A stretch of 64,000 bases of DNA, taken from assembly GCF_000003815.2 (NCBI RefSeq), contig NC_049983.1, positions 22,717,552 to 22,781,551 on the forward strand. The letters are read 5' to 3'. The notes beneath the pieces are model-generated. The model was not told the origin of the DNA, did no database searches, and saw only the letters and a list, made by a program, of their open reading frames with translations. A program made the translations under genes and the position numbers. How positions within the stretch are numbered: the stretch's first letter is position 1; the number at the start of each line of letters is the position of its first letter. Shown here one piece after another: positions 2,777 through 57,160 of the stretch. This stretch comes from Branchiostoma floridae (taxonomy: Eukaryota > Chordata > Leptocardii > Amphioxiformes > Branchiostomatidae).

Positions 2777-5269
2777 TCAGGCATCTTTCGAGGATTCACT
2801 TGCGGCCTGGGCCCCACCCTGCCCTGTCTGATCATGCCCACGGATCGTGACACTTACTGATGAGGCGTTACTGAAACCGACTGGAGGGGTTGGGCCTAAG
2901 GCAGGGTTCTGGGTTTTGCTCTTGAACCAGATTGTAAGAATGATGGTGCTGACAAGGAGAGTGACTGCTACCGGGCCGCACACAGAGCCAATGAGCACAG
3001 GTATGGACAGAGTGGGAGCAGATTCATGGGAACTCCTGCTGTCTGGTTTGTTTGCGGGGCCAGCCATGGGAAGGAGTGAAGTCGTTCTTGCCATTGTACC
3101 AGTTGTGGTCACTTCGTGGACATGGATAATCTGTGAGGCAAACGTTGAGCCAACAGGACCTGTTGCAATGCGGACATACAGACCAGCATCTGCTGCAGTG
3201 ACATTGGTTATGGTGAAGGTACCATTCACATCCACAGTCACCCTCCCACCTGACTCAACAGTTGCATTCAGTCCAGATGGGAGGGTAACTGTGATGTCTG
3301 GTGTGGGGATGCCTGAAGTTTTGCAAACCAAACGGAGTGTCTGCCCATCTACCACTGTGTTATTGTCACTGTTCCCAAACCTCACTATTGCTGGCTCTTC
3401 ACAGATCAGATCTTCAATACGCATATCTTTAAGCTTTGGTCCGCGTAAGTTTCTGCTGATTGGTCCGTCACATGTGATTTGGTTTTCGAATGAATCAGAC
3501 CACCAAGGAGTCGACCCACTCATCAGTTGCCTGAAGGGAACCATTCTACAGTCACACTGCCAGGGGTTGTTGTTGATATTTACATCAGAGATTGATGACA
3601 GTACTGCAAACATATCTGCGTTAAGGACTTCAATTCTATTCTGATCCAGCCTTAAAATGCGCAGTTGTTGCGTTGGACTAAAAGTTCCAACCTGAATATC
3701 ACTTATCCCATTATCAAACAGCCAAAGCTCCTGCAAGTTTCCCAGCCCTGTAAACATGCCGGACCTGAGGTGTGTTAACTTGTTCCCATTCAAGTACAAG
3801 TATCTAAGGCGTAGTGTTGAAATGAAAGTCCCTGCTTGGATATCATTAATCTCATTACTATGCAGCTCAAGATGTTGCAAGTTTCCCAGCCCTGTAAACA
3901 TGCCAGATCTAAGGCTTGTTAAGTTGTTGTTATCCAGGTACAATGTTTCGAGTTGTAATGTTGAATTGAAAGTCCCAGCCTGAATCTCATTAATCTCATT
4001 ATTTTTCAGCTCAAGTGTCTGCAAGTTTCCCAATCCTGTAAACATGCCAGATTTAAGGTTTGTTAAATTGTTGTTTTTCATGTACAAGCTTCTCGTTTCC
4101 AGTTGTGGTGTTGAAGGGAATGTTCCAGCCTGAATATCACTGATCTCATTATGGCCCACGAATATCGTTATTGCCTGCAAGTTTCCCAGCCCTGTAAACA
4201 TGCCAGATCTGAGGTGTGCTAACTTGTTCCCACTCAAGTACAAGATTCTAAGGCGTAGTGTTGAAATGAAAGTCCCTCCCTGGATATCTTTGATCTCATT
4301 ACTTTGCAGATCAAGATGCTGCAAGTTTCTTAGCCCTGTAAACATGCCAGATCTAAGGCTTGTTAAGTTGTTGTTATCCAGGTACAATGTTTCCAGTTGT
4401 GGTGTTGAAGTGAAAGTTCCAGCCTGAATATCACTGATCTCATTATTGTTCACTTTAATGGTCTGCAGATTTTCAGGTCCTGTAAACATGTCAGATCTGA
4501 GGTTTGTTAACTTGTTACGATCCAGGGTCAAATGTATCAATTGTGTTGTTGAATTGAAAGTTCCAGCCTGGATATCATTAATATCATTATTGTACAATGT
4601 AAGTACCTGCAAGTTTTCCAGCCCCGTGAACATGTCAGGACTGAGGTCTGTTAATTTGTTACCATCCAGCCAAAGTTTTTGCAAGTTTTTCAGCCGTGTG
4701 AATATGTCAGGACTGAGGTATGTTAATTTGTTGTCATCCAGCCCAAGTTTTTGCAAGTTTCCCAGCCATGTAAACATGTCAGAACTGAGGTTTGTTAATT
4801 TGTTATTACCCAGGTATAAGTCTCTAAGTTGCGGCGTTGAATCGAAAGTTCCAGCCTGAATATCACTGATCTCATTATCGTATAAGCTAAGGTACTCCAG
4901 GTTCCCCAGCCCTGTAAACATGTCAGCACTTACGTTGGATAGGCGGTTCTCTTCAAGATCCAAATTGATCAAATCTGACAAGTAATAGAATGCTTGGCCA
5001 TTGATTGTGTCGATACGGTTTTGACTTAAGTCTAGGTGTGTCAAGCTCCCATACGATTGGAAATCAGACTGACTTAATGTTGTGATTAGATTAATCTTCA
5101 CATCAAGGGTAGTGATGTTTGCCGGCAGGTTCTGAGGAACGCTGGTCAGGTCCAGGTAGTAGCAGTCAGCATAGGAACCAGAAATGCTGCAGGAAGCTTC
5201 TGTTGATCCAAACACCTTCAGGATGATCAGAAGGGATAACAGCATCTTTGGCAGCATCTCATCGCCCAT
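2777..5269 (-). CDS. LRR-Ig transmembrane receptor A (830 aa, single coding exon)
   Basis: Predicted type I membrane protein. It has a signal peptide (1-25, hydrophobic [12 protein letters not shown]), an LRRNT-like cap with two Cys, about 21 typical 24-residue LRRs (41-558), and an LRRCT starting NNPWQCDC and ending at Cys623. One Ig-like domain follows (624-719), then a stalk, a transmembrane helix (755-782) and a 48-residue tail with no tyrosine. Family knowledge: extracellular LRR-Ig proteins are adhesion or recognition receptors and are expanded in amphioxus; the ligand is unknown. Oddity: the F-strand Cys of the Ig fold (YVCIA in paralogues) is Arg700 here (codon CGC, 3170-3172), so the domain cannot form its usual disulfide with Cys649. 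The start is the ATG just inside an acceptor (CTGCATTAG at about 5285), giving an untranslated 5' exon upstream. The exact product is inferred by homology. Confidence 0.9.
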   Translation of the reverse strand: MGDEMLPKMLLSLLIILKVFGSTEASCSISGSYADCYYLDLTSVPQNLPANITTLDVKINLITTLSQSDFQSYGSLTHLDLSQNRIDTINGQAFYYLSDLINLDLEENRLSNVSADMFTGLGNLEYLSLYDNEISDIQAGTFDSTPQLRDLYLGNNKLTNLSSDMFTWLGNLQKLGLDDNKLTYLSPDIFTRLKNLQKLWLDGNKLTDLSPDMFTGLENLQVLTLYNNDINDIQAGTFNSTTQLIHLTLDRNKLTNLRSDMFTGPENLQTIKVNNNEISDIQAGTFTSTPQLETLYLDNNNLTSLRSGMFTGLRNLQHLDLQSNEIKDIQGGTFISTLRLRILYLSGNKLAHLRSGMFTGLGNLQAITIFVGHNEISDIQAGTFPSTPQLETRSLYMKNNNLTNLKSGMFTGLGNLQTLELKNNEINEIQAGTFNSTLQLETLYLDNNNLTSLRSGMFTGLGNLQHLELHSNEINDIQAGTFISTLRLRYLYLNGNKLTHLRSGMFTGLGNLQELWLFDNGISDIQVGTFSPTQQLRILRLDQNRIEVLNADMFAVLSSISDVNINNNPWQCDCRMVPFRQLMSGSTPWWSDSFENQITCDGPISRNLRGPKLKDMRIEDLICEEPAIVRFGNSDNNTVVDGQTLRLVCKTSGIPTPDITVTLPSGLNATVESGGRVTVDVNGTFTITNVTAADAGLYVRIATGPVGSTFASQIIHVHEVTTTGTMARTTSLLPMAGPANKPDSRSSHESAPTLSIPVLIGSVCGPVAVTLLVSTIILTIWFKSKTQNPALGPTPPVGFSNASSVSVTIRGHDQTGQGGAQAASESSKDA

Positions 5270-10078: not shown

Positions 10079-12556
10079 TCAACTTGCGGCCTGGGGCCCA
10101 CCCTGCCCTGTCTGATCATGACCAGTGATCGTGACACTAGCTGCTGCGCTACTGAAAACAACTGGATTGGGTGGGCCTGAGGGAGGGTTCTGGGTCTTCA
10201 TCTTGAACCAGATTGTGAGAATGATGGTGCCAACAAGGAGAGTAACTGCTACCGGGCCGCACACAGAGCCAATGAGCACAGGTATGGACAGAATGGACAG
10301 AGAGGGAGTGGATTCACGGTAACCACTGGTAGCACTACTCTCTGGTTTGTTAGAGGGGTCAGCCATAGCAATAGGTGAAGTCACTGGTGCCACTGAGCTA
10401 GTTGTGGTCACTTTCATCTGGATATTCAGTGCCGCAAATATTGAGCCAACAGGGCTTGTTGCAATGCAGACATACAGACCAGCATCCGCTGCTGCAGTAG
10501 CATTGGTTATGGTGATGGTACCATTCATATCCACAGTCACCCTCCCACCTGACTCAACAGTTACATTCTGTCCAGATGGGAGGGTAACTGTGATGTCTGG
10601 TGTGGGGATGCCTGAAGTTTTGCAAACCAAACGGAGTGTCTGCCCCTCTACCACTGTGTTATTGTCACTCTTCCCAAACCTCAAAATTGCTGGCTCTTCA
10701 CAGATTAGATCTTCAATACGCATATCTTTAAGCTTTGGTCCGCGTAAGTTTCTGCTGATAGGTCCGTCACATGTGATTTGATTTTCGAATGAATCAGACC
10801 ACCAAGGAGTCGACCCACTCATCAGTTGCCTGAATGGAACTATCCTACAGTCACACTGCCAGGGGTTGTTGTTGATATCTACATCAGAGATTGATGACAG
10901 TACTGCAAACATCTCTGCGTTAAGGACTTCAAGTCTATTCTGATCCAGCCTTAAAATGCGCAGTTGTTTCGTTGGACTGAAAGTTCCAGTCTGAATATCA
11001 CTGATTTCATTACTGTTCAGCGAAAGTTCTTCCAAGTTTCCCAGCCCTGTAAACATGCCGGATCTGAGGCTTGTCAACTTATTTTCATGTAGGACCAAGC
11101 TTCTTAGTTGTGACGTGGAAGTGAATGTTCTAGCTTGAATATCGTTAATCTTATTTCTTTGCAGCTCAAGATGCTGCAAGTTTTCCAGCCCTGTAAACAT
11201 GCCAGATCTGAGGCTTGTCAACTTATTCTCATACAGGAACAAGATTTTTAGTTGTGATGTGGGGGTGAAAGTTCCAGTCTGAATACCACTGATCTTGTTA
11301 TTGCCCAGGCTAAGGGCCTGCAAGTTTCCCAAGCCTGTGAAAGCCCCAGTGTGGACATCACTGATCTCATTATTGTGCAGCTCAAGTTCCTGCAAGTTCC
11401 CCAGCCCTGTAAACATGTCTGAGCTGAGGTGTCGTAACATGTTCTGATAGAGGCGTAAGTTTGTCAGTTGTGGTGTAGAAATAAAAGTTCCAGGCCGAAT
11501 GCCATTGATCTTATTGTTATCCAAGAAAAGCTCCTGCAAGTTTTCCAGACCTCTAAACAAGTCAGATCTGATGTTTCGTATCTTGTTATAATGCAAGGAC
11601 AAGGTTGTCAGTTGTGGAGTTGAATCGAAAGTTCCAGTCTGAATATCACTGATCTCATTAACGCTTACGTAAAGGGCCTGCAAGTTTCCCAGTCCTGTGA
11701 ACATGTCAGATCGGAGGTTTGTTAAGTTGTTGCTACCAAGGTGCAATGTTATCAGTTGTGATGTTGAACTGAAAGTTTCAGCTTGAATATCATGTATCTC
11801 ATTCTTGTACAGAGTAACTTCCTGCAAATTACTTAACGCCGCAAAAACGTCAACGGTGATGGTTTTTAACTTGTTATATTGCAGGTTCAAGATTGTCAAT
11901 TTTGGTGTTGAAGTGAAAGTTGTAGCCTGTATATCATTGATCTCATTTTTGTTGATTTGAAGTTCCTGCAAGTTTTCGAGGCCTTTGAACATGTCAGATC
12001 TGAGATTTGTTATTTTGTTATTATCTAGCCAAAGTTCCTGCAAGTTTCCCAGTCCTGCAAAGGTGCCAGATCTGAGGAAAGCTAACTTGTTAAAACTCAA
12101 GGACAATATTCTCAGTCCTGGTGTTGAATTGAACGTTCCAACCTCAACACCATTGATCCCATTACCGTCAAGCCAGATACTCTCCAACTTTCCCAGCCCT
12201 GTAAGCATGCCAGCGTAAAGGTGCGACAGTCGGTTCTCAGCAAGACCCAAATAGATCAAGGCTGACAAATTATAGAATGCGTCTCTATTGATAGTGGTGA
12301 TACGATTGTACTGTAGCTCAAGATGTGTCAAGCTCTCAAGCTGTGAGAAATCAGACTGATCTAATGTTGTGATAAGATTATACCGCAAGTCCACGTCGGT
12401 GATGCCTGCTGGCAGCTTCTGAGGAACACTGGTGAGGTCCTGGTTCCAGCAGTAATATGCTGTATAACCAGGAATACCGCAGGTGGCTTCTGTTGATCCA
12501 AACACGTTCAGGATGATCAAAAAGGATAGCAGCATCGCCGGTAGCTTTCCACCCAT
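10079..12556 (-). CDS. LRR-Ig transmembrane receptor B (825 aa, single coding exon)
   Basis: Tandem paralogue of gene A. It has a signal peptide (LLSFLIILNVFG), an LRRNT-like cap, about 21 LRRs, an LRRCT ([13 protein letters not shown]), one Ig-like domain with both cysteines (CKTSG and YVCIATSP), a stalk, a transmembrane helix ([15 protein letters not shown]) and a short tail ending in GGPQAAS without tyrosines. The frame is open for 35 codons upstream to 12661. I start at the Met of MGGKLPAML at 12556 because an acceptor (TTCCTGCATCAG|GCC, exon edge 12571) lies between, exactly as in the four paralogues. The LRRCT and the Ig region are almost identical to gene A, pointing to a recent duplication or gene conversion; the LRR arrays differ more. 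The ligand is unknown. Confidence 0.9.
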   Translation of the reverse strand: MGGKLPAMLLSFLIILNVFGSTEATCGIPGYTAYYCWNQDLTSVPQKLPAGITDVDLRYNLITTLDQSDFSQLESLTHLELQYNRITTINRDAFYNLSALIYLGLAENRLSHLYAGMLTGLGKLESIWLDGNGINGVEVGTFNSTPGLRILSLSFNKLAFLRSGTFAGLGNLQELWLDNNKITNLRSDMFKGLENLQELQINKNEINDIQATTFTSTPKLTILNLQYNKLKTITVDVFAALSNLQEVTLYKNEIHDIQAETFSSTSQLITLHLGSNNLTNLRSDMFTGLGNLQALYVSVNEISDIQTGTFDSTPQLTTLSLHYNKIRNIRSDLFRGLENLQELFLDNNKINGIRPGTFISTPQLTNLRLYQNMLRHLSSDMFTGLGNLQELELHNNEISDVHTGAFTGLGNLQALSLGNNKISGIQTGTFTPTSQLKILFLYENKLTSLRSGMFTGLENLQHLELQRNKINDIQARTFTSTSQLRSLVLHENKLTSLRSGMFTGLGNLEELSLNSNEISDIQTGTFSPTKQLRILRLDQNRLEVLNAEMFAVLSSISDVDINNNPWQCDCRIVPFRQLMSGSTPWWSDSFENQITCDGPISRNLRGPKLKDMRIEDLICEEPAILRFGKSDNNTVVEGQTLRLVCKTSGIPTPDITVTLPSGQNVTVESGGRVTVDMNGTITITNATAAADAGLYVCIATSPVGSIFAALNIQMKVTTTSSVAPVTSPIAMADPSNKPESSATSGYRESTPSLSILSIPVLIGSVCGPVAVTLLVGTIILTIWFKMKTQNPPSGPPNPVVFSSAAASVTITGHDQTGQGGPQAAS

Positions 12557-16059: not shown

Positions 16060-17399
16060 TCTTACAATCATCAATGGTATGTCTTTTTCGGTGGAAATCT
16101 CTGTACATGTCCATCTTCAGTTTTTACTGTTTTACACCGCCCTTTGCAGGGTGCCCTTTTCGAAGGTCAGGACCCTGAGCTTCTTTCTATTCGTAATCTT
16201 AAAACACCTCTAGTTACATCGACACGACATTGTCTCATCTAGAAATGTCAGCACATGTCCATCTTCAGTTTTACCCCGTCCAGCGGTCAGGACGTCTGGC
16301 CCTACCATGAGCTTGTACTGATTGTAAAACATACAATAGTATGTCTCATCTACGGTAAAAATCTCTGTACATCTTCAGTTTTACACCGTCCTTCACTCTT
16401 TGCAGAGTACCCTTTTCTGCAGTCAGGACGTCTGCCGCCACCCTGAGCTTGTGCTCATTCTTTAAACACTTCACAAGAGACAATGGTATGTCTCATCTTC
16501 GGTAGAGGTCTCTGTAAATGTCCATATTCAGTTTTACACCTGTCGATTTTCAACCCTTTGCAGGGGGCCCTTTTTCGGCGGTCAGGGCGTTCGCCACTAC
16601 CCCAAGCTTCTACTGGTTGTTAAAACACTTCACAAGATACAATAGTATGCCTCATCAACGATTACCATAGAAATCTCTGTACATGTCCATCTTCAGTTTT
16701 AAACTGTCTTTCACTCTTTGCAGGGCGCCCTTTTCTGCGGTCAGAACGTCAGCCGCCACTCTGAGCTTGTACTGGTTCTAAAACATTTCACTAGATACAG
16801 TATCATGTCTCATCTTCTGTAGAAATCCTTGTACATCTCCATCTTCAGTTTAACACCATCTCTAACCCTTTGCAGGGTGCCCTTTTCTGCAGTCAGGACG
16901 TCTGCCGCCACTCTGAGCTTGTACTGGTTCTAAACATAACATTTCTGAATCACTAGATACAGTATCGTGTCTCATCTTCTGTAGAAATCCTTGTACATCT
17001 CCATCTTCAGTTTTACCCCATCTTTCACCCTTTGCAGTGCGCCCTTTTCTGCAGTCAGGACGTCTGCCGCCACTCTGAGCTTGTACTGGTTCTAAACATA
17101 ACATTTCTGAATCACTAGATACAGTATCGTGTCTCATCTTCTGTAGAAATCCTTGTACATCTCCATCTTCAGTTTTACCCCATCTTTCACCCTTTGCAGT
17201 GCGCCCTTTTCTGCAGTCAGGACGTCTGCCGCCACTCTGAGCTTGTACTGGTTCTAAAACATTTCACTAGATACAGTATCATGTCTCATCTTCTGTAGAA
17301 ATCCTTGTACATCTCCATCTTCAGTTTTACCCCATCTTTAACCCTTTGCAGTGCGCCCTTTTCTGCAGTGAGGACGTCTGCCGCCACTCTGATCTGTAC
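16060..17399 (-). repeat. PNPLA8: Tandem array of PNPLA8 terminal-exon copies
   Basis: About nine copies of a 150-162 bp unit read on the minus strand. Each good copy has an acceptor-like TTTTAG or ACCAG and then a frame coding [20 protein letters not shown], continuing [16 protein letters not shown], and a stop. Human PNPLA8 ends with a matching stretch (KILSQEKTTLQKINDWIKLK and then TDMYEGL), so the unit is the gene's last exon plus intron flank. The best copies are those with anchor CTGCAGTCAGG near 16887, 17049, 17211 and 17363 (spacing 162, 162, 152). Older copies near 16140, 16290, 16410, 16590 and 16735 are more diverged. The 100-N gap interrupts the array, so the copy number is a minimum. 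Confidence 0.85.
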
Positions 17400-20300
17400 N
17401 NNNNNNNNNNNNNNNNNNNNNNNNNNNNNNNNNNNNNNNNNNNNNNNNNNNNNNNNNNNNNNNNNNNNNNNNNNNNNNNNNNNNNNNNNNNNNNNNNNNG
17501 TTACAACATTCATCACAACTTTATGGTGCTTATTTTTGAAATGTAGCCATCTTTTTTTTCACCCATCTTGTTTTTTTTCCGCCCTATCGCACTATTTTTG
17601 CAGTCTGCAGAGGATGTCATCCATAAAATTTACTTGCTGTGTCACACACCAGGGGGCCCCAAATCAACTTTCACGACCTTCATCTTTCCATCTCCTATCC
17701 TGCAGTATCCACAAAACAAATACAATCCATCCAGAGGTTCTAAAGTTATACTGACCATAAACATACAGAAACACAGACAGACACACAGACACAACCAATA
17801 CAATATCTCAATTTTTCATAATCTCAAGGCAGATTTGTCAGTGGCATAAGATAGTATCAAAGCTTGCCAAAAAGTACAGCTGGCCAAAGGGAGTCATCAG
17901 CCTCCGGTAGCCAAACACACTCCTAGGTCAGATTCACTCCTCTCGCAGCTTTTGATACTATCTTATGCTACCATAGGATCTGCTTGGAGATTACATTTTT
18001 AGGGAGGTACCAAACCGCTGACCTTCAGTGTTGGTGGCGCTCTCCACCACCTTGCTGAGCTTGGTGCGGAGGTTGAGGCTGGAGGAGCTGGTGACGTTGT
18101 CCGGCTCGTACCGCCCCATCCCCACTGAGACCACACACTGCAGGGGCGTGTCTGGCCACAGCAGCTTACTCTCATGGATCGCCACGGCACAGGGGTTGTT
18201 CACTAACACTCCTCCATCCTGGGGGGATAGACAATTGTTATAATAGTTAACACGGCACAGGGGTTGTTCACTAACATTCGTACCGCCCCATCCCCACAGA
18301 GACCACGCACTGTAGGGGCGTGTCCGGCCACAGCAGCTTACTCTCGTGGATCGCCACTGCGCAGGGGTTGTTCACTAACACGCCTCCGTCCTTGGAGAAA
18401 ATTTGGTTCAGGTAAAAGTGTGAGGGGAAGTAGTTGTATTTTACTTAATGCTCTGATATAACTTGCAGTCATCTATTAGCCTGCTGAAAAGACCTTCATG
18501 GGGTGATGCATGGTAATTGCACAATGCAATCACAATTCAAGTTCTGCTGCAGTACCAAGGTCACATGCCAGGGGATCCAAAATCAATCTTGACCTTTGTT
18601 TGCATTGTGGAATCACCTTACATCACTCCATAAAGGTCTCATCAGCAGCCTAAGTGTACCGTTGTTACAGTCCTTTCATGTCATTATAAGGTGCCCAGGC
18701 TACCATAACTAATATTATTTTGTAGCCACCTGTAATTGTGTTAACTACATGTAAACTTCCTGGTCTTAAATGTAGCAGTAAATGACACCCTAGCTCCTGC
18801 GATTGGATTAAGTGTCCCTGGTGAATTCCCTGTCCCCGTCTGAACTCCTCAAAGTACCCCAGAGCTGCTGATGAGTACCAAGAACCAAACCCGTGACCTC
18901 TCGATCTCACTTCCACTAGTTTTAAGCCACTCGGCCAGTCCATTATAAACTATATTATAACCTTAGTACAGTAGAAGCCATTAATTGCACAACGGATTAA
19001 CGCAAACTTCTGTTAACTGCACGGAATCCCCAAATCCTGATAACTTTGCATTATTGCACCAGCCAGATAATTGCACAAAATTCACTGGCAAATAGGTCGT
19101 GCAATTAAGCAGTTTCTACTGTACACATAAGTAGGCAATCCCTACCTGGTGAATTCCCTGTCCCAGTTTGAACTCCTCGAAGTAACCAGGCGCGGCTGAC
19201 GACGCCCTGACGGCCTCCCAGACGCGGGTGCAGCAGTCGCCGTGGTAGTGTGAGGGTGCGCCCGCCGGCAGGTTGTAGTTCCGGAACAGGTACGCCCGCA
19301 GGGACGGGTGGTTCGCCAGGGTCGACACCACTGAGATCTGGGCGGGGACACAGGTAACCATGGCGATTAATGGTCTGACTGACAACAGATGTACATATAG
19401 AGGAAGGTGATCACTGATCATATTTGCAGATAGATGTGCAAAAGCTAGGTGTGACAGGTTGTTCAGTGTAATATAACCAGCTACTGCCACACTACATGAC
19501 CGGGAAGCTGTCAAGCTGGCCTGTTTTATGCTACAGTAAGATTTCCAAAGCAGTGCCCATGTTTGCAGAAATGAAAAATAACAGTGGTTGCCGAGGAATA
19601 TACATGTACACCAAACATGCCCATGGCTATGCTATGTGGTCACTTGTGCAGTTGTTTTCTGAAATGATGACATTGCTAGTCTAAATGCTACTGGGTAAAA
19701 CAAAATTAAGTGTATGTTAACAAGTGTATGCTGAAAATCTTAGCAGAAATAGAAAAACAGTGTAAAAAGTGTTCATATTAAACTTGTCAAGTGAAAAAAA
19801 AGCAACATTACAAACACAGCCGTTGCAAGTAATTGATATGCAACTTTTGATTTTATTACATGTAAACAAAGCCACAAAGGTGTGTCATATTGATTATTGA
19901 TGATATATATACACAGTCTCAAAATTGCAGCCATGCAATAACAACTCCGAGCACATCATTCTTCAACATTGGCAATGGTATTTCACAGAGTTAAAAGTAA
20001 CCTTGCCGACTAATTTTCTTTAATGACATACAATAAACAATTGTTAGATCTGCTAGATTAGGGGAATAATTTGAGACTACAAATCAAATCCTGACAGCAA
20101 CTTTCCAAATATTCATACACAGTTATCTAATAGACTCTCGTAACTTAAAAGATGGGTTATATTTATCTAGGATTTCTACCTATCCAATATCTTGACACAA
20201 TTAGTAGCTAAAATACATATGCATGGTACTACAGACTTGTACATGTTATACATTGTACATACATTATGGAACAAATTTTTCACATTATGAATCATTGTCA

Positions 20301-23300
20301 TTTCCATACAAGATAACCTGTAGTGTAGCTAAAGCATCCCTAGCAACTCTGCTATCTGGTTACTATTCAGATATTTGATGGGCTGGGGGTTGTCATTTTC
20401 CAGTGACAAAAAAAAACAAAAAAACAATCCTCATCCTCATGCCTATGATAACCTTTAAAAAAGTTATTGTTTCAGCATTTTGATCAGGTGCTGTTTCATA
20501 CGTGAGGATCATCTTTTCCAGTTACTGTCTCATCATCGTTCTCATACAAGATAACTTGAGGAACTACCAAAGCATCTTTAGCAGCTGCTATCACATCGCT
20601 GTTTTCGTACTTGCGGCACTGAAGATCATCTTTTACTGATACTGAATCATCGTCATTTTTGTACAAGACAACTGGAGAAACTGCCAAAGCATCTTCAGCA
20701 TCTGCTGTCACCTGGCCGATTGCGTACTTGTGAGACTGAGGATCTTCTTTTCCTGTGACTGGCTCATCATCATTCTCATAGCTTATAACCTGTGGTACAG
20801 CTACAGCATCTTTAGCAGCTGCTATCATCTGGCTGTTCTGATATCTGTTGGGCCGTGGTCTGTCATACAAGATAACTGGAGGAACTACTAAAGTATCTTC
20901 AGCATCTGTTACTACCTGGCTGTTTTTATATTTGTGGGACCGAGGATCAACTGTTACTGACTGATATCCATCCTCATCCATGGCTACCTGTGGATTATCA
21001 GCACCATGGACAGCTGCTGATACAGTCTGGTTATCAGCCAGGGGACCTGAATTGTTTCTAGGGGGAAGGGAAGGAGGTACTACCTCATATTCATGTTCTG
21101 ATCTGCCAAAATGCGGTCTTTGTGGTGGAGTAAGTACATCGACATATTCCTCTTCATTTTGATCTGCCCTCAAGTCAGTTTGCCGTTCATGGCCTATGCC
21201 TGACAGTGGTCTTTGTGAGGGAGTGTCTACATCAACATATTCATCTTCATCTTCCACTACATTATCATACCCTGTCTGGCCCGTACCTGTATAAGGTCTT
21301 CGGGAGGGTGTGTCTACATCAGTGTACTCTTCGTCTTCCACTATATCATCATGCCTTGCCAGGTCATGGGCACTGACAGTAACTGTGTTTGGTTTGTAGA
21401 AAACAACTCTTGAATTTGAGCCTGAGTAAGAACTTTTAGATCTCTTCTTTTGCCAGAGTATGATGCTGATGGTAACAAGTAGGACAGTGCCTACTGCTGC
21501 ACCACTGACAGAGCCAACAAGAACAGGCAGGGAGAATTCGGAGGTGTTAGCAGCCTCAGAATCTGCTGAAGGTTTGTTTGAAGCATTTGTCATAGCAAGA
21601 GCTGTTACAGTAGTTACTGGTGACACTGCGCTAGTTGTGGTGTCTTTCAGTTGGACATTTACAACCAGAGTTGCAAACGTTGAGCCAACAGAGCTTGATA
21701 CAGTACAGACATACAGACCAGCATCTTCTGCAGTGACATTGGTTATGGTGATGGTACCATTCACATCCACAGTCACCCTCCCACCTGACTCAACAGTTAC
21801 ATTCAGTCCAGATGGGAGGGTGACTGTGATGTCTGGTGTGGGGATTCCTGAAGCTTCACAGACCAAATAGAGTGTCTGCCCTTCTATGACTGTGTTATTG
21901 TCTCCCCTCCCAAACCTCAGTATTGTTGGCTCTTCACAGATCAGATCTATAGGATTGACAAATCTAAGATGTCGCCTACGGACTTTGCTTGGTCCTTCAC
22001 ATGTGATTTGGTATTCAAAGTCAGGAGACCCAGTCATCCTTTGCCTGAAGGGAAGCATCCTACAGTCACACTGCCAGGGGTTGTTGTCAATGTTTACAGT
22101 AGAAAGTGACGACAGTCTGTTGTAGGCTGTTGAGGTAAGAGTCTCCATTTGGTTGTCCTGAAGCTGAAGCTCAGAGAGTGATGGAAGCTTTGACAAAGCC
22201 TCCGTTGGAAAAGTTTCTATGTTGTTGCTAAACAATCTGAGATTTCTAAGTAGTGGCAGATTTGCAAATGCCTCTGCTTTGAAGAGCGTTAGCCTATTTT
22301 GCTCTAGGTACAAGTTTCTCAGTTGTGGCATTGAACTGAAAGTTCCAGTCTGAATGTCATTGATTTCATTATCACTAAGGTGAAGGGTCTCCAAATTTTG
22401 CAGCCCTGTGAACATGTCAGATCTGAGGGTTGCTAACTTGTTCTGATCCAAGTGCAATGTTGTAAGTTGTGGTGTTGAATTGAAAGTTCCTGTCTGAATA
22501 TTGTTAATCTCATTATTGACAAGGTGAAGGATCTCCAAGTTTCCCAGCCCTGTAAACATGTCTGATCTGGGGTTTGTTAACTTGTTATTACTCAGGGTTA
22601 AGGATATTAATTGCAGTGTTGAACTGAAAGTTCCAATTTGAATATCACTTATCTCATTATTGTACAAGTAAAGTTCTTGCAAATTTCCCAGCCCTGAAAA
22701 CATGTCAGATCTGAGGTTTGTTAAATTGTTCTCATATAGGTATAATTTCATTAGATGTGGTGTTGAATTGAAAGTTCCAGCCTGAATATCACTGATCTCA
22801 TTATGATACAGCTGAAAGTCTTGCAAGTTTCCCAGTCCTGTGAAAATGTCAGTAGTAAGGCTTATTAATTTGTTCTGATACAGGTATAAGGTTCTCACTT
22901 GTGGTGTTGAATTGAAAGTTCCATCCTGAATATCACTTATCTCATTATTGTACAGGTAAAGTTCTTCCAAATTTCCCAGCCCTATAAACATGTCAGATCT
23001 GAGATTTGTTAACTTGTTCCTATTCAGGTACAATTTTATCAATTGTGGTGTTGAATTGAAAGTTCCATCCTGAATGTCACTGATTTCATTATTGCTAAGG
23101 TAAAGTTGCTGTAAGTTTCCCAGCCCTGTAAACATGTCAGATCTGAGTTCTGTTAACTCATTACCAATGTGCAAGTTTCTCAGTTGTGGTGTTGAATTGA
23201 AAGTTCCAGCCTGAATATCACTGATCTCATTACTGGACATTGAAAGACGCTGCAAGTTTCCCAGCCCCGTGAACATGTCAGATCTGAGGCTTGTTAACTT

Positions 23301-26300
23301 GTTAGAACTCATGTACAAGTTTCTCAGTTGTGGTGTTGAACTGAATGTTCCAGCCTGAATATCATTGATTTCATTGCTGTGTAAGCTAAGGGTTTCCAAG
23401 TTCCCCAGCCCTGTGAACATGTCAGATCTGAGGTGTGGTAACTTGTTATTATACAGCCACAAGTCTGTCAGTTGTGGCGTTGAATTGAAGGTTCCTGCTT
23501 GAATATCACTGATCTCATTACTGTATAAGCTAAGGTCCTCCAAACTTCCCAGCCCTGTGAACATGTCAGATCTGAGGCTTGACAGTCGGTTTGTTCCAAG
23601 ACCCAAATCGACCAAATCGATCAAGTTATAGAAAGCATGGCTATTAATTGTGGCAATACGATTGTTCCTCAGATCTAGCCTTGTCAAGCTCCAAGACTGT
23701 GAGAAATCAGACTGACTTAATGTTGTGATGAGATTGTCATGCAAATCAAGGTGAGGAATGTCTGTCGGTATGTCCAGGTTTGGAGGAACACTGGTGAGGC
23801 CCTGGTTGCTGCAGTCAGTGTATCGATGAGTCCAACCAACTATCGAAGGATAATAATCTACGTGACATGGATCCTGTGCTATACTTGTGCTTCTTGATCC
23901 AAACACCATCAGGATAATCAGAAGGGATAACAGCATCCCTGGCAGCTTTTCACCCATAACGTTGTTGGTGGTCTAAGACAAGAATAAGGGAAAATTCATT
24001 ATGACATCTTTTAAGACATTTGAAACAAAAAATCTGACTCAATATTTTTTAGAAAACTAAAATCTATCATCATTTATCAGTACAGTACTGCTGCAGCAGT
24101 ATGTCCTCATTCATCATTCATAAATCCGCTTAATTTGCATACAATACTATTCTTATCCACTATGGTTCACAATACTTCATTCTGAGATTCCTAGTAAATT
24201 TTTATTTCAATTATTAAATGTAATATTCTGCATGGATTTTTAAAGTAACTGTCTACCAATTTTGATACCTTCCAAGTTGCATGATTGTGAAATCATCATT
24301 ATCCTTGTTTAATACAAAGACTTTTAGAAAAAATTAAACCACCCCTTGACCAGTACTGTAATGGTACAACCCGCATGCCAACCAACCACCCAAGTATGGA
24401 AGAACAAGCAACATCAGACAGAATTTGGCTCAATGAATTGTGGACACAGAAAGCCAGTTACGGTGAAAGCAATATGGTTCCTACTTCTAATATTTTTACT
24501 TTTTGTCAACAAATGAAAAAAAACACATATTATTTTCCCCATCATACAAAACCTCATTAGCTTATGAGGAAGTGAATGTTTTTGACATTCAAAAAGAGCT
24601 GTAAGTTCTGCAGCAACTTTGATCATAACAGATCTGATAACATGACCTTGTCGACATGAAAAACAACAACTCACCTTTGAAGTTCCAGCTTGACAGAAAA
24701 TCTTTTGTCTTTCTTGCCAAGAAGTGATGAAGGACATTACTTCTCCTAGTAAGGACTTTTGTGCCTGTAATGTAAGACACAAGAATGAGCTTTGGATATC
24801 TGTTCCTTCTTTGTACTTATATGTAAAACAACAAAAACATCTTGATTGCCCCTTGACAATCTATTACATGCATCTTGCTTTTCTTTCTCATTATTTTTAT
24901 CATTAAATAGGGCTTAGTTGGCATCAACTTTAATTTTGCAGCCATACCCCCTTGGTACCCCCTGTAATGTAAATCTATTTACGTCTTCCTGACAAGGAAA
25001 TGACCAGAAAAATAGCATTTTTTGCATCATTTTGTTGCATTTCCTGAACATTTTCACTCATCAGATTGATGCAACACTCATCAAGTAGTAAGTTGTCAAT
25101 TAAAAGTGCTAATTTATGGCAGAAACGACACAGGCTTTGACAGAAATCCACAATGAACAATCACAAAAAGAGTTGTTGGTGCACAATTCTTCTATATGAT
25201 TTTCTTTCTTTTCAAGCAAAAGAGTCCTATACATAAAACAAATATCAGGAAGACTTACCAGAGACAGTGTCTTAAAAAATTGTGCAAGTCGATGTCGATC
25301 CTACAAGGGCGCACCTGGTCAGAAGACTTACAAAACAGACAAGAAATCACACCTGTGGGGTACCTGCCGTGGAAAACCCAATTGCTGTAACTGCGCAGGT
25401 TGTTTTCCCTTGTAACACAATACTATTCACAAGGATGCATATCTCAAATGACCTGTTGACATGGGTTAGACAATGTAAAAGGGGAAGAGCTGAAAGCCAT
25501 ACCTCTGGTTTTGACAGTTTGGGGAACTGCTAAAAAAGTCACCTGCTGATTGAGAAGTAGATCTAGGCTTTACATAAAATATGGAAATAGCAGTCAAAGT
25601 TTTGTTTGATGTACAAATGATGGTAGAGCAACAGGCTGCACCCTACTATCAAACCATAGGAAGCATCATGGTAATCAATAAGGAAATGAGTGCTATGACT
25701 TGTAAACACACAACTTATGGAAAACCATGATGTGGGTGTGCTTGTTTATGAATGAATGAATGAATGAATGAACTTTATTGCAGGACATTTGTGCATGGTA
25801 CAATGTTTATGTGTGTGTGTGTGTGTGCAGCTTACACTAAATCAATGGAACCACTTGCTTAAAAATAAGAAATACAATAATTTTGATCATAACGTGTCAG
25901 ATTTAACACTTACATGTAGTAACACACACAGTCTGTGCAGGTTATGGTGCACTTTTATTTCAATACTGAATAGAAGAAATATTTAAGTCATACAAGGTGC
26001 TAAGCATCGGTGACACAGTCTCAAATCTCATTAACATTTGGCGGTAATTGAAATTATATCACAATCATTGTATATCATCTTGAACTAAAATTACAGTGTT
26101 TTAGGATCCAGATATATTGGACTCCAACCTTCTCTATGTATACCTGGTGACCATTATACATTTGTATGTAGATGATTGTTGAACATCAGTTCCAAACTTT
26201 CCTGTCAAATATTATATCATACATATAAAATAAGGTAAAATACAATCAGCTACATTTTGTGCATACATTGTGTACATTGTACAACTCTACCTGATGCTTC

Positions 26301-35300: not shown

Positions 35301-38300
35301 GTTGTGGGTTCTAGAAGGCCGACATTTACAATCAGAGTGACAAATGTTAAACCAACAGGACTTGCTGCAATACAGACGTACAGACCAGCATCTTCTGCTG
35401 TAACATTGGTTATAGTGATGGCACCACCCACATCCACAGTCACCCTCTCACCTGACTCTACTGTAGCATTCAGTCCAGATGGGAGAATGACTGTGATGTC
35501 TGGTGTGGGGATTCCTGAAGCTTCACAGGCCAGATATAGTGTCTCTCCCTCTATCAATGTGTTATTTTGAACCCTGTCAAACTTCGCAATAACAGGAGGT
35601 GAAGTTGTTGGTACCATTTCAGCAGTTGTGGGTTCTTTGGGGCCTATAACCAGTGTGGCAAATGTTGAGCCAAGTTCAGCACTTGCTGCAATGCAGACAT
35701 ACAGACCAGTATCTGCTGCAGTGACATTGGTTATGGTGATGGCACCATTCACATCCACAGTCACCCTCCCACCTGACTCAACAGTTACATTCAGTCCAGA
35801 TGGGAGAATGACAGTGATGTCTGGTGTGGGGATTCCTGAAGCTTCACAGACTAAATGTAATGTCCCACCCTCTACCACTGTGTTATCGTCAGCCCTCCCA
35901 AAGCTCAGTATTGTTGGCTCTTCGCAGGTCAGATCTTCAGGACTAATATTTTTAAGCCTTTGTCCTTGGAAGTTGCTGGGTCCTTCACATCTGATTTGGT
36001 ATTCAAAGTAATGAGATCCAGTCATCTTTTGCCTGAAGGGAAGCATCCTACAGTCACACTGCCAGGGGTTGTTGTCAATGTCTACAGACCTGATTGATAC
36101 CAGCCTGTTGTAGGCTGCTGATGGCAGGGTCACAATTTTGTTATCACCAAGCTGAAGCTCATAAAGTGATGGAAGCTTTGACAAAGCCTCCATAGGAAAA
36201 GTTTCTATGTTGTTGCTATCCAATTCGAGGATGGTAAGTAGTGTTAGCTGTGCAAATGTGTCTGCTTTAAAGAGTGTTATCGTATTCTGATGCAAGTTCA
36301 AGTCTGTCAGTTGTGGTGTTGAATTGAAAGTTCCAGGCTGAATATCACTGATCTCATTATTGTACAGCCAAAGGTTCTGCAAGTTTCCCAGCCCTGTAAA
36401 CATGCCAGATCTGAGGTTTGTTAACTTGTTATTATACAGCCTCAAGTCTGTCAGTTGTGGTGTTGAATTGAAAGTTCCAGCCTGAATATCACTGATGTCA
36501 TTATTTTGCAGCCAAAGGTACCGCAGGCTTGCCAGCCCTGTAAACATGTCACATCTGAGGCTTGTTAACTTGTTCTGACCCAAATACAATGTTGTTAGTT
36601 GCAATGTTGAATTAAAAGTTCCATCCTTGATGTCATTGATCTCATTGTTGCTGAGGTAGAGGGTTTCCAAGTGTCCCAGCCCTGTAAACATGTCAGATCT
36701 GAGGTTTGTTAACTTATTCTGATGCAGGCGCAAGGTTGTCAGTTGGGGTGTTGAACTAAAAGTTCCAGCTGGAATATCACTGATCTCATTACTGTACATT
36801 TGAAGATCCTCTAAGTTTCCCAGCTCTTTGAACATATCAGCACTGAGGTTTCTTAATTTGTTACCTAGGGACAAGATTCTCAGTTGTGGTGTTAAACTGA
36901 AAGTTCCAACCTGAATATCACTGATGTCATTATTGCTAAGGTGAAGGGTCTCCAAGTTTCCCAACCCCAGAATCATGTCAGATATAGAGTTTGTTAACAT
37001 GTTATTACCTAGGTCCAAGGTTTTCAGTTCTGATATGAAACTGAAAGTTCCAGCCTGAATGTAAATGATCTTATTATTGTATAAGTTAAGGTACTCCAGG
37101 TTCCCCAGCCCTGTAAACATGTCTGATGTAGGGTTTGCTAACTTGTTACTACCCAGGCGCAAGCTTTTCAGTTGTGGTGTTGAATTAAAAGTTCCAGCCT
37201 GAATATCACTGATCTCATTATTGTCCAACCGAAGAGTCTCCAAGTTTACCAGCCCTATGAACATGTCAGCACTGAGGTTGGACAGGCGGTTCCTGTTAAG
37301 TTTTAAATCAACCAAATCTGGCAAGTCATAGAATGCTTTGTTATTAATTGTGGTAATATGATTGTTGTGTAGGTCTAGCTCTGTCAAGCTTGCATACCGT
37401 GAGAAGTTAGACTGACTTAACGTTGTGATTTGATTCCACCACAACGCAAGGTGAGTAATGCTTGTCGGGAAGTTTTGAGGAACACTGGTGAGACCCTCAG
37501 CGACGCAGACAGCAGAAGAAGCTGGTGTGATACAGGTAGCTTCTGTTGATCCAAACACCTTCAGGGTAATCAAAAAGGATAACAGCATCCCTGGCAGCTT
37601 CTCACCCATGCTGGTCTCTGTGCCCTGATAGAAGAATGTAATGGACTTCTCATAATTGAAGTTACTGTCAAGATCTCTATGCTGAGTAGGCAAATACATT
37701 TTGTAACATCCTAATTAACATAATATGCAAATAAAAATTCACAATGAATCCATACATTTACATCTTGTATGGATCAATAGACTGAATATTTCATGAAATT
37801 ACAAATTTCATTTCCTAGTATACACAATTCTTATCTAACAATGTTGATAACGAATATATTATTTGCATAATTATAGAATACTAAGAAATTTGTCTCAAAC
37901 CACCCCTTTTTCTTCCGCAATGGTACAGCCCACATACCAACAACCCAAGTGAGTACGAAGGTAAATTTTGGGAAATCATTTCTTTCTCATACATCTGATA
38001 TATTGTTTCTGCATGAGAAAATTCAAACCTTTTCTTAATGATCCTAGTACATAAGAAATAGAAAAATACTCTTGTTCTTGGTCTTTCAAAGACAATTGTT
38101 GTTTTGAAGATTAGATTTCTACAATAGTCTTCATACATTTTCGAAGGATATGATAGACCTATGCTGTTTTCAAAACAACTTACCTGACGTGTTATGTTTA
38201 AGCTGGATAAGTTGTTTGACTTTTTGTCAAGAAGTTTTCAATGACTTTTCTTCTGAACCGTTGCCCCTGTTGTGTAAAATACAAGTTTGTGTTCTGGATT

Positions 38301-51492: not shown

Positions 51493-54400
51493 CTACTTCT
51501 TGTTGGCCTCGCTGAGGATCCTGAGGATGTGCAGGAAGAGGTTGATCATGTCCAGGTACAGGTTGATGGAGGCCAGGATGTACTCCTCGGGGGACAGCTT
51601 GTGCATCAGCATGGACGTGTCAAACACGATGAACAGGCAGAACAGGATGGCCCCTCCCACCGCCAGACCCATCTCCATGATGTCATTACGGGGGAAGAAC
51701 AGCTGTGAAAAATATAACATGAGCTTTACTGCTGTCCTAAACTGAAGTGGTATCATTAGTGATGAACAGGCAGAACAGGATGGCCCCTCCCACCGCCAGA
51801 CCCATCTCCATTAGGTCTTTATGGGGGAAAAACAGCTGTGAAGATATAACAGCACCAGAGTTTCACACTGTGTCATTACTGTAATACACAAACCCATCTC
51901 CATTAGGTCGTCAGGGGGAAGAACAGCTGTGAAAAATACAACATGAGCTTTACTGCTGTCCTAAACTGAAGTGGTATCATTAGTGATGAACAGACAGAAC
52001 AGGATGGCCCCTCCCACTGCTAGGCCCATCTCCATGATGTCATTACGGGGGAAGAACATCTGTGAAGAACAACATAAGCTTGTTATACTCTGGTACTTTG
52101 TAGGATAGACCTACAGGCAGAACAGGATGGCCCCTCCCACCGCCAGACCCATCTCCATTATGTCATTACGTGGGAAGAACAGCTGTGAAGAACAACATGA
52201 CCTTGTTATACTCAGGTACTTTGTAGGATAGACCTACAGACAGAACAGGATGGCCCCTCCCACCGCCAGTCCCATCTCCATTATGTCATTACGGGGGAAG
52301 AACAGCTGTGAAATATACAACACGAGCTTTACTGCTGTCCTAAACTGAAGTGGTATCATTAGTGATGAACAGGCAGAACAGGATGGCCCCTCCCACCGCC
52401 AGACCCATCTCATTATGTCATTACGGGGGAAAAACAGCTGTGAAGATCAACATGAGCTTGTTATACTCAGGTACTTTGTAGGATAGACCTACAGACAGAA
52501 CAGGATGGCCCCTCCCACCGCCAGGCCCATCTCCATTAGGTCATTACGGGGGAAGAACATCTGTGACGAACAATATCAGGCTTGTTATACTCTGGTACTT
52601 TGTGGAATAGACCTACAGGCAGAACAGGATGGCCCCTCCCACCGCCAGACCCATCTCCATGATGTCATTACGTGGGAAGAACAGCTGCGAAGAGAACAAT
52701 ATGAGCTTGTTATACTCTGGTACTTTGTAGGATAGACCTACAGGCAGAACAGGATGGCCCCTCCCACTGCTAGGCCCATCTCCATTAGGTCATTACGGGG
52801 GAAGAACAACTGTGGAGAGAACATGAGCTTGTTATACTCAGGTACTTTGTAGGATAGACCTACAGACAGAACAGGATGGCCCCTCCCACCGCCAGAGCCA
52901 TCTCCATTATGTCATTACGTGGGAAGAACAGCTGTGAAAAATATAACATGAGCTTTACTGCTGTCCTAAACTGAAGTGGTATCATTAGTGATGAACAGGC
53001 AGAACGGGATGGCCCCTCCCACCGCCAGACCCATCTCCATTAGGTCATTACGGGGGAAGAACAGCTGTGAAAAACAGAACACAAGCTTTACTGCTGTCCT
53101 AAACTGAAGTGGTATCATTAGTGATGAACAGGCAGAACGGGATGGCCCCTCCCACCGCCAGACCCATCTCCATTATGTCATTACGGGGGAAGAACAGCTG
53201 TGAAAAATATAACACAAGCTTTACTGCTGTCCTAAACTGAAGTGGTATCAGTAGTGATGAACAGACAGAACAGGATGGCCCCTCCCACCGCCAGACCCAT
53301 CTCCATTATGTCATTACGGGGGAAGAACAGCTGTGAAAAATACAACATGAGCTTTACTGCTGTCCTAAACTGAAGTGGTATCATTAGTGATGAACAGGCA
53401 GAACAGGATGGCCACTCCCACGGCCAGGCCCATCTCCATTAGGTCATTACGGGGGAAGAACAGCTGTGAAAAACAGAACACAAGCTTTACTGCTGTCCTA
53501 AACTGAAGTGGTATCATTAGTGATGAACAGGCAGAACAGGATGGCCACTCCAACTGCCAGGCCCATCTCCATTATGTCATTACGGGGGAAGAAAAGCTGT
53601 GAAAAATAAAACATGAGCTTTACTGCTGTCTTAAACTGAAGTGGTATCATTAGTGATGAACAGGCAGAACAGGATGGCCCCTCCCACTGCCAGACCCATC
53701 TCCATTAGGTCATTACGGGGGAAGAAAAGCTGTGAAAAATATAACATGAGCTTTACTGCTGTCTTAAACTGAAGTGGTATCATTAGTGATGAACAGGCAG
53801 AACAGGATGGCCCCTCCCACTGCCAGACCCATCTCCATTAGGTCATTACGGGGGAAGAACAGCTGTGAAAAATAAAACATGAGCTTTACTGCTGTCTTAA
53901 ACTGAAGTGGTATCATTAGTGATGAACAGGCAGAACAGGATGGCCCCTCCCACTGCCAGACCCATCTCCATTAGGTCATTACGCGGGAAGAACAGCTGTG
54001 AAAAATATAACATGAGCTTGTTATACTCTGGTACTTTGTAGGATAGACCTACAGACAGAACAGGATGGCCCCTCCCACTGCCAGACCCATCTCCATTAGG
54101 TCATTACGCGGGAAGAACAGCTGTGAAAAATATAACATGAGCTTGTTATACTCTGGTACTTTGTAGGATAGACCTACAGGCAGAACAGGATGGCCCCTCC
54201 CACCGCCAGGCCCATCTCCATAATGTCATTACGGGGGAAGAAAAGCTGTGAAAAAAAAACCATAAGCTTTACTGCTGTCCTAAAGTGAAGTGGTATCATT
54301 AGTGATGAACAGGCAGAACAGGATGGCCCCCAGCTGTGAAGAGAACAAGATGAGCTTGTTATACTCGGGCACTTTATAGATTAATAAAACATTAACGTTA

Positions 54401-57160
54401 CTGTTTTAGTGTTGTCATTATGACATTTCATAGCATCCTTTTAGCTTGTGTTCAAATCATCAAATAACAAACAGCCATACTTACATGTAGGAAACCTGCA
54501 ATGACGAGGATCCAGAGAGCAGAGAACAATCTGGAAAAAAAATTAAGTTGCTTATTGACAGGACATAAAGAGACTCAAGTATGCCCATAATTAATGATCA
54601 CATCAATGATGTTAGTGATTTTATGCCATGGGCATCTTTTCTAAGTTATCTAACATAGACTCATCTAACTGTTGTTTGTTTCGGTCTTCATCGTGCACTT
54701 GTAAGTAAATAAACTTCAAATAAATATCTAGTGTACTTCAGAAGGTAGGAGAGCTGAAAAACTTACTGCACAAAAAGCATGCACATGTGTATTGCTATGG
54801 CTGGCCTAAACCTCTGTCACATCTATGGTTGATAACCAAAATGTGTAGACTCCTTACCCTGCCCCCCATGAGCTGTAGTCCTTCTTGCTCTGCAGGGTGT
54901 AGAGTGTCAGACCCACACACACCGACAGGGTCAGGGCAAACGCCTGAAGCACGATCGCTTGGTCATAGAACGTCACTGAGGAAGAGCAGATAGAAGATAG
55001 AGAACTTGTAATCAATTCAAGCACATTTGGGACTTTTCTGTGAAGGTTGGTAAGAGTACAAGACTACAATTGGCACAGTCAGAGGTTCAGCTCAAGAAAA
55101 AATGAAATCTTACAATCTTTTTTTTTATGGATAGCAAAGGCCAGGAGGACCACAGGAAGAATAGCTATATGTAATAGAAATGTCAATGTCAAAGTCTTGC
55201 AAAGAAGACAACACACAAACATCATAATAATCATAACTCACCTACAGTCCCAATAGAGTATGCTTCCACAAATGTCTGTGAGAATGAGACAAACCAACAT
55301 GATATGTTAAAGTGGACAAAACAAACATTTTTCAAGCATAGGTTATGTTTGTAAACAATCTAATGATAGACATGTTGTCCTCTTGACATGTGCCTATGGG
55401 GACTGAAAATTTTTGGGCAGACTGGAAGTGGTCGTCTTGAGACCAAGTTTGACTGGAACTTTGGTAGAAATTACATGTATAAACTCTACACTACTTCACT
55501 CTTGCAGCAACAGTATTTTCATGAGGATTGCCTACAGATGTAAGAAGTAACTTACAAAAGCTGCCAGTAGGTACATGTTGGTGGGGTACTCTGTACGCTT
55601 GATGTGTAGAGCCACCAGGATACCCAGGGAAAGGAACAGGGCAAGCATCAACAGGTTGGGACTGAAACAACAGAGTTTGGACATGTGTCAAACAGTACAA
55701 TATATTTCTTTATAACTGCTAACACCAGCAGGCACATGCTGACCTAATACAGCAATAGTGCCTCTAAAGATTACATTCAACTTCCAGTGTCCGAAGTGAT
55801 CACATCACTAGAAAAAGTTTGATGATGCTTATAGACTGTCAGAGAGGTGTGCCAAAGCACTACTGTGACAGAATGTAATGTAATGTAATCAGGAATGTAA
55901 TGGTTTATTCAGTAAGGAACTCGAAGGCGACAAAAGTACACTCTAGTTTCGTTCTTATTACAAGGCTTGACATACAAATAACCACATGATTACTTTTTAC
56001 GCCATGCTTGTAGACAGAGAGAAACTGAGGACCAGCAAATCATTTGTAGCTTTGACACTATGGGTACTGTGAACAGACTTGTACATACTACATAGTAAAC
56101 AAAGGTACTGGGGATAGTTAGGATGTAGTATTTACCTTCCTTGTACAAAAGTCTTGATAGCCGGTGTGTAGATGAAGAGCGCCCCCATGATGGTGGTGAG
56201 GGCCAGCTGCATGGACAGGATGCCATACACCTTCCTCAGGAAGGCTGCAGGGCAAGGAAAGATGTCAATATGTGTATCTACATCAGATCAAATCATTGTG
56301 TGAGTCTAAACTGTTACATGGTATATTATAAAACTAGCAATCAGGTAGCAATCTAGGTATCTAGCAGTATTGTAGCTCTTCAAATACGTATTTGTAGAGA
56401 GGACAAAAACCAAGGCAGTTCTTTCCCAACGTCATCTAACTTCTAACCAATCCAAGGCCGGCAGCATGATCTGCGTTGTCTGCCAAACAGATTCTCAGCC
56501 CAGCCTGGCTATAGTGGTTCACTTGGTATCTTGTTTAGGAAATTCATAATGAAAGGCCTACAGTATTTTTTCATTGATATGCAAAACAATGTATCATATA
56601 CTTTTATGAGAAGATTATTTGCAATGATATTTGAATCTTTCAGAATTTCTCCTTGTACTTTTGGACATACGTTTTGCGTTATAACCCCTGAATTATGATG
56701 TCAATCTCATAAATCAGGAAAAGAGGATGTGAAACCAAACTACCCACAAACATGAAAGGGGGAGGGGGGCATGAAACTACATGATTTTCCCACCTGCACT
56801 TGACAGTTAAGGCTGCATAAAACTCGGATGAAAGGAATATCAACGTTACGTCTGAAACAGATTTTTTAGGCCCTGTGGTAACTGTAAACACCTGAGCTGA
56901 AGAAGTTTCATAAATGTGTCGTATAATCATTTTTCCCAAGAACTCTACTCTACTCTGTGGCCCAGACAACTTAGGTGTTAAATCCAAACATATGCAGCCC
57001 TTGCATCCAATACCTGATTATAAAACTTACCCATTCTGATGTAGACATGTGAGGAGGCCACGTTGGTACCGTACATGAAATCGTCCATGATGGAACTCTG
57101 TCCCTTTCCGCTCGGCTCGGGGTTCGCTACAAACGTGGGCAGTGGCACTGAGGTCGCCAT
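51493..57160 (-). CDS. TMBIM4: Transmembrane BAX inhibitor motif protein 4 / lifeguard 4 (250 aa, 7 exons)
   Basis: Exons on minus: 57160-57031, 56244-56136, 55661-55556, 55275-55242 (a 34-nt micro-exon), 54975-54858, 54530-54485 and 51702-51493; all phases join. The protein matches the human Golgi anti-apoptotic protein: [20 protein letters not shown] at the start, [51 protein letters not shown], then the diagnostic [19 protein letters not shown] and an [12 protein letters not shown]-type end. It is a seven-helix protein; the family acts at Golgi/ER membranes in calcium release and apoptosis control. Human length is 238. The first part of the last exon and its acceptor are amplified ~20-fold in the last intron, so mutually exclusive or decoy terminal exons are possible. 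Confidence 0.96.
51750..54345 (-). repeat. TMBIM4: Tandem array of TMBIM4 last-exon 5' parts (about 20 copies)
   Basis: Anchor GGATGGCCCCTCCCA occurs near 51779, 52001, 52125, 52249, 52380, 52503, 52628, 52750, 52876, 53009, 53142, 53275, 53408, 53541, 53676, 53809, 53941, 54064, 54187 and 54323, with a partial copy near 51900. Two unit types alternate in blocks: ~133 bp (with CTGAAGTGGTATCATTAGTG) and ~123 bp (with TTTGTAGGATAGACCTACAG). On minus each copy has the acceptor (TTCACAG|CTG) and the coding start [20 protein letters not shown]. In the long type [12 protein letters not shown] and a stop follow; in the short type FCL and a stop. The array lies wholly in the last intron. Confidence 0.92.

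Follow-up and report, generated by a model that had tools for sequence, protein, structure and literature searches.

A splice-boundary tandem array in the last intron of a TMBIM4-like gene of Branchiostoma floridae as a likely lancelet mirage

In lancelets, tandem repeats that span exon-intron boundaries were named "mirages" in Adh3 and have been described in globin genes (PMC3087553), and PGBD5 and troponin C provide further cases (PMC3902484). The Adh3 data together with globin RT-PCR suggested that normal splicing is undisturbed by mirages (PMC3087553), and the tandem repeats in lancelet PGBD5 were upheld by resequencing (PMC3902484). Here, we analysed a window of 64,000 nucleotides of the B. 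floridae genome (NC_049983.1, positions 22,717,552 to 22,781,551) in which the last intron of a TMBIM4-like gene holds such an array. It shares with mirages a boundary-spanning unit in imperfect copies, a conserved AG, apparent exchange among copies and the setting in a lancelet genome. We suggest that it is very probably a lancelet mirage that is normally spliced past and that grows and is shuffled by exchange with the real exon. No description of this array was found among the matches listed in the literature on lancelet minisatellites, mirages and TMBIM, a scope that takes in few subscription papers.

The TMBIM4-like gene lies on the minus strand (57160-51493) and, by its splice sites and open frame, has seven exons and encodes an intact product of 250 aa. 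The protein is matched by Pfam Bax1-I (E 1.7e-51) and by bacterial YetJ structures (E 4.1e-13), and an NCBIfam search gave no match. The name TMBIM4 is taken over from the preliminary description of this DNA and agrees with the features of the family. In a genome search with the protein, 23 of 25 scored matches are the gene's own locus, and the other two, on C16, are weak, one with 52% identity over 48 residues and one with 43% over 44; by this search the gene is single-copy. A separate genome search has no second copy of the locus among its listed matches. The exons below were delimited by splice sites and open frame, exon 6 also by donor score.

57031..57160, minus strand: exon 1, coding part
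56136..56244, minus strand: exon 2
55556..55661, minus strand: exon 3
55242..55275, minus strand: exon 4
54858..54975, minus strand: exon 5
54485..54530, minus strand: exon 6, donor CAT/GTAAGT (the slash marks the exon end)
51493..51702, minus strand: exon 7, the real last exon, coding part including the stop

Exon 6 thus ends at 54485, where its donor had been placed before, and the last intron (2782 nt) consists almost entirely of the tandem array. The preliminary description had counted about 20 copies of the acceptor and of the first ~25 codons of the last exon in this intron, with two types of tail; this count is borne out by tiling, which gives 21 units of 88-133 bp on the minus strand from 54333 to 51703, ahead of the real acceptor at 51702, each repeating the acceptor and the first ~23-25 codons. 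Tandem Repeats Finder covers 51892-54330 of the array (scores 2262 and 2874), and the remainder comes from the unit tiling. The units are listed in the order of transcription as delimited by tiling, with translation or comparison where a sequence feature is named; the region before the array rests on the alignment of one B tail, and the array as a whole on Tandem Repeats Finder and tiling.

54334..54379, minus strand: end of the intron stretch that precedes the array, aligns with a B tail, likely original acceptor region
51703..54333, minus strand: probable mirage array, 21 units
54246..54333, minus strand: unit 1, A tail, 45-nt exon deletion (translation)
54121..54245, minus strand: unit 2, B
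53996..54120, minus strand: unit 3, B
53863..53995, minus strand: unit 4, A
53730..53862, minus strand: unit 5, A
53597..53729, minus strand: unit 6, A
53464..53596, minus strand: unit 7, A
53331..53463, minus strand: unit 8, A
53198..53330, minus strand: unit 9, A, tail FITTDTTSV (translation)
53065..53197, minus strand: unit 10, A
52932..53064, minus strand: unit 11, A
52810..52931, minus strand: unit 12, B, acceptor context equal to the real one over 74 nt upstream and 11 nt downstream (comparison)
52685..52809, minus strand: unit 13, B
52561..52684, minus strand: unit 14, B, GCAG acceptor
52438..52560, minus strand: unit 15, B
52306..52437, minus strand: unit 16, A tail, 1-nt deletion causing a frameshift (translation)
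52183..52305, minus strand: unit 17, B
52060..52182, minus strand: unit 18, B
51927..52059, minus strand: unit 19, A
51836..51926, minus strand: unit 20, irregular, frameshifted (translation)
51703..51835, minus strand: unit 21, A, tail serving as the intron end of the real acceptor

The exon copy measures 69 nt per unit, or 75 nt in A units, and 19 of the 21 units hold essentially all of the 69 nt with which the last exon begins (1 nt short in one of them), the exceptions being the units that begin at 54333 and 51926. Twelve units carry the A tail (TTCATCACTAATG...), which where intact reads FITNDTTSV and then a stop, eight carry the B tail (TAGGTCTATCC...) with a stop directly after FCL, and the unit at 51926 is irregular. 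Spliced from exon 6, ten copies would give a protein of 213 aa ending in FITNDTTSV (FITTDTTSV in one) and eight a protein of 204 aa ending in FCL. The other three are the copy at 52437, in which a frameshift carries the reading into the following unit, the copy at 54333, which lacks 45 nt of the exon and ends in ...FITNDTTSL, and the copy at 51926, which is frameshifted and ends in LFFPLTT. Translation of the units agrees with the anatomy, the frame, the point of truncation and the loss of the HKLSPEEY segment given in the preliminary description. No rival gene was seen on the plus strand of the array, where open frames have at most 82 codons.

The B tail, as judged from one aligned example, is similar to the intron sequence directly preceding the array, and for this reason the B unit, an intron end joined to an exon start, is probably the older form. 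For the first 44 nt of the A tail, neither the rest of the window (score 27, with 20 shuffled sequences scoring 20-32) nor the remainder of the real exon offers a convincing match; the tail's reading FITNDTTSV resembles, over few residues, the TMBIM stretch "FI..DT.S". The two unit types had also been held to occur in blocks as a result of unequal exchange. Runs of like units exist, but the departure from a random order is slight (7 runs, p = 0.067; longest run 8, p = 0.034), and the exon parts of neighbouring units are no more alike than those of distant units (p = 0.35).

The array was seen in one assembly, and an assembly gap at 17400-17499 adjoins another array in the window, so that stuttered or merged haplotypes could be suspected as its source. 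Yet no two of the units are identical, which disfavours simple assembly stutter; A units share 90-98.5% identity (11 of 12 compared) and B units 88-96% (all eight compared), the A and B units follow each other in mixed order, and the array contains no N. Given also that the PGBD5 repeats were upheld by resequencing (PMC3902484), we regard an assembly artefact as very improbable, while the copy number of the array may still be wrong.

The AG is kept at all 22 positions, i.e. at 21 of 21 decoys and at the real acceptor. The decoy acceptors have 11-14 pyrimidines in 16 positions (real, 12) and an AG-free stretch of 16-30 nt (real, 19), and the real acceptor is identical to decoy 52931 from 74 nt upstream to 11 nt downstream. 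Because the local context of the two is the same, on sequence grounds the real acceptor is not chosen by a local signal, and wider context must choose it. Neither AATAAA nor ATTAAA occurs in the array; AGTAAA is found in 12 of 12 A tails and in no B tail, and CATAAA at 51823, both of which are possible weak variants of the poly(A) signal. After the real stop, candidate poly(A) signals are CATAAA at 51324, ATTAAA at 50786 and AATAAA at 49900. Scored with crude consensus frequencies, the best donor in the array reaches 1.08 and the gene's six donors 1.47-6.88, five of them at least 4.66; on this scale the weakest of the gene's own donors (1.47) is barely above the best of the array.

The preliminary description had proposed that the copies are alternative terminal exons from which truncated, dominant-negative or null forms of TMBIM4 are made. 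The invariant AG in all 21 decoys, the clean truncations at 204 or 213 aa in 18 of them, the loss of a C-terminal stretch alignable to the C-terminal part of YetJ and the AGTAAA of the A tails are all as this proposal would have it. Lacking AATAAA, ATTAAA and any strong donor, the array would most likely provide, if a decoy acceptor were ever used, an alternative 3' splice site followed by the remaining array as a long 3' end. A stop codon in the last exon escapes exon-junction NMD, and since a decoy-spliced mRNA would have its stop there, a truncated protein might be made. Nevertheless, the same want of a canonical poly(A) signal, the frameshifts or deletion in three decoys and the published mirages, which were found or argued not to disturb splicing (PMC3087553, PMC3902484), speak against alternative terminal exons. 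Dominant-negative or null forms are thus possible in principle but find no support, the array having no AATAAA/ATTAAA and no strong donor and RT-PCR on a mirage having suggested undisturbed splicing (PMC3087553), and we consider this use of the copies unlikely by a wide margin.

Alternatively, the array acceptors could be splicing decoys that stall the intron, by retention or detention, and so tune the level of TMBIM4. Decoy exons reported to act on intron retention are a described class (PMC12017769), and the many acceptors closely resemble the real one. Against such a role, the array is without strong donors and its copies resemble those that a shuffling minisatellite would be expected to produce. 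Described decoy exons usually carry both splice sites. We therefore give this alternative very little credence.

Returning to a mirage that exchanges with its exon, the codon changes in the copies are informative. With two incomplete units of 22 dropped, 19 decoys and the real exon, 20 copies in all, show 21 distinct changes, of which 14 are synonymous, against 25-30% expected under free drift, and seven non-synonymous; third positions are in excess (p = 0.0018 when changes are counted, 0.016 when variable sites are). Of the 91 character pairs formed from 12 exon sites and the types of the two adjoining tails, 39 have all four combinations. Although recurrent mutation may account for some of these pairs, they point to exchange of tracts smaller than a unit. 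The real acceptor is served by an ordinary A tail, so that the intron-exon boundary itself seems to have been exchanged. On the basis of the synonymous bias and the four-combination pairs, we conclude that the real exon and its copies appear to trade sequence, possibly also from allele to allele, and that the decoys probably bear the imprint of selection acting on the working copy. Translation of the decoys as alternative terminal exons would also yield a synonymous bias, but is made less likely by the frameshifted or deleted units and by the seven non-synonymous changes. Variation per site is higher at third positions than in the intron tails (0.48 against 0.19 in A units, 0.435 against 0.26 in B units), which is not predicted by a simple filter unless alleles supply the variants. 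Changes shared among copies did not differ significantly from rare ones in their ratio of synonymous to non-synonymous (6:1 v. 8:6, p = 0.34).

Further tandem arrays and duplications occur in the window. A second splice-boundary array, with a period of ~162 bp, covers the last coding exon of an iPLA2-like gene (16090-17399, minus strand), and an assembly gap of 100 N lies at its edge (17400-17499). Two joined exons of this gene match Patatin with E 2.2e-8 and one exon alone falls under the cut-off (E 0.0017); the remaining gene sequence gave no patatin match, and nothing in Pfam rose above the cut-off for the repeated unit peptide, which we take to resemble the C-terminus of PNPLA8. Four of five units translated end in YRR and a stop, and such units could each act as a last exon. 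Over 36 codons of five of the nine units (the ninth near 16609; four incomplete or degenerate units were left uncounted), 16 of 24 changes are synonymous (p = 8e-5). In the same gene, the middle exon with the DGG motif (18108-18218, minus strand) has an upstream copy of its first 37 codons at 18280-18390 in which nine of nine differences are synonymous, and the sequences just upstream of the exon and of its copy look unlike each other. The 3' end of another exon is copied once downstream in the intron (18818-18874 v. 19146-19202, minus strand); no GT follows the copy, and six of nine differences are synonymous. Arrays with a 72/144-bp period at 3663-4926, 10978-11803, 22306-23581 and 36275-37279 are probably leucine-rich-repeat coding sequence.

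A globin search of the genome gave nine matches at nine loci. At locus L017, a 158-bp array of 4.2 copies lies over an exon acceptor (954-1601), with 9 of 11 changes synonymous in three copies, two of which are identical there; at locus L013, the 3' boundary of an exon is copied at an offset of 157 bp (1642-1747, 1799-1904), with 9 of 12 changes synonymous. In unit length these two fit as counterparts of two mirages described before, that of BflGb6, with 6 and 3 units of 150-160 bp, and that of BflGb9, with 157 bp. Self-similar DNA is also present at L009, L012 and L016; the codon counts covered L017 and L013.

In total, differences are mostly synonymous in six of six exon-boundary duplications counted, and the pooled figure is 63 of 86 where ~30% is expected. 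Taking changes as independent, this gives p = 2e-16 against 0.30 and p = 3e-7 against 0.46, the value for a drifting decoy compared with a real exon that changes only synonymously; against the latter the small cases are weak (9/11, p = 0.01; 9/12, p = 0.04). Only the two globin duplications were picked by DNA comparison, at loci from a protein-family search, and the other four were noticed in the preliminary description or via reading frames, so that the sample favours conserved ones. The synonymous bias in mirages is a new observation of the present analysis.

Combining the anatomy of the array with its signals and codon changes, we suggest how a mirage in TMBIM4 would arise and persist: (i) the 3' end of the last intron, together with the 5' part of the last exon, would be duplicated in tandem again and again to form the minisatellite, (ii) the spliceosome would normally use the 3'-most acceptor because only there do a complete terminal exon and the gene's poly(A) site follow, the terminal exon presumably being defined by the poly(A) site and the downstream sequence that belong to it, (iii) the upstream copies, which lack both a strong donor and a canonical poly(A) signal, would for that reason not be defined as exons and would be removed with the intron, and (iv) unequal exchange and gene conversion, with the real exon included and probably between alleles too, would enlarge and shuffle the array, so that the copies would carry mainly synonymous variants tolerated in the working exon. 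A more far-reaching version, to which we lean slightly less than to its negation, is that array and real exon trade sequence so frequently, between alleles as well, that the decoys, rather than drifting freely, store allelic variants of the working exon; selection on whichever copy stands last would keep them readable, and the real exon could be overwritten from this store. If so, splicing would pick the last of ~22 near-identical acceptors by context alone, in each individual.

The TMBIM4 array adds an unusually large case of 21 units, ordinary in kind for lancelets, to a little-studied phenomenon, and could serve as a natural experiment on the choice of a terminal acceptor from locally identical copies. 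The synonymous bias in all six duplications suggests that mirages evolve jointly with the copied exon, and such co-evolution bears on the origin of new introns and exons by tandem duplication.

Among known systems outside lancelets, the tandem genomic duplication in a potato RdRp gene lies within a gene and is tied to splicing, as in TMBIM4, but is reported as an intron gain (PMC4974935), whereas the TMBIM4 copies stay intronic as far as visible. Similarly, the decoy exons in intron retention of OGT are, like the TMBIM4 copies, intronic splice sites that may lack productive use, but they are reported as regulated elements (PMC12017769), whereas the TMBIM4 copies are one-sided acceptors in a minisatellite. 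Closer are the mirages of Adh3, troponin C, PGBD5 and BflGb9, which are splice-site-spanning repeats reported or argued to be harmless to splicing (PMC3087553, PMC3902484); they differ in gene, in unit length (Adh3 10-72, PGBD5 60 and 108, BflGb9 157 bp) and partly in the boundary concerned. The closest counterpart is the BflGb6 mirage, in which the 3' end of an intron and the 5' part of an exon are likewise repeated in tandem with decoy acceptors, in units of 150-160 bp with 81-100% identity and with concerted evolution inside the cluster (PMC3087553). That mirage lies at exon 2 with 6 and 3 units (PMC3087553), whereas the TMBIM4 array has 21 units before the last exon and two tail types, each of which adds stops.
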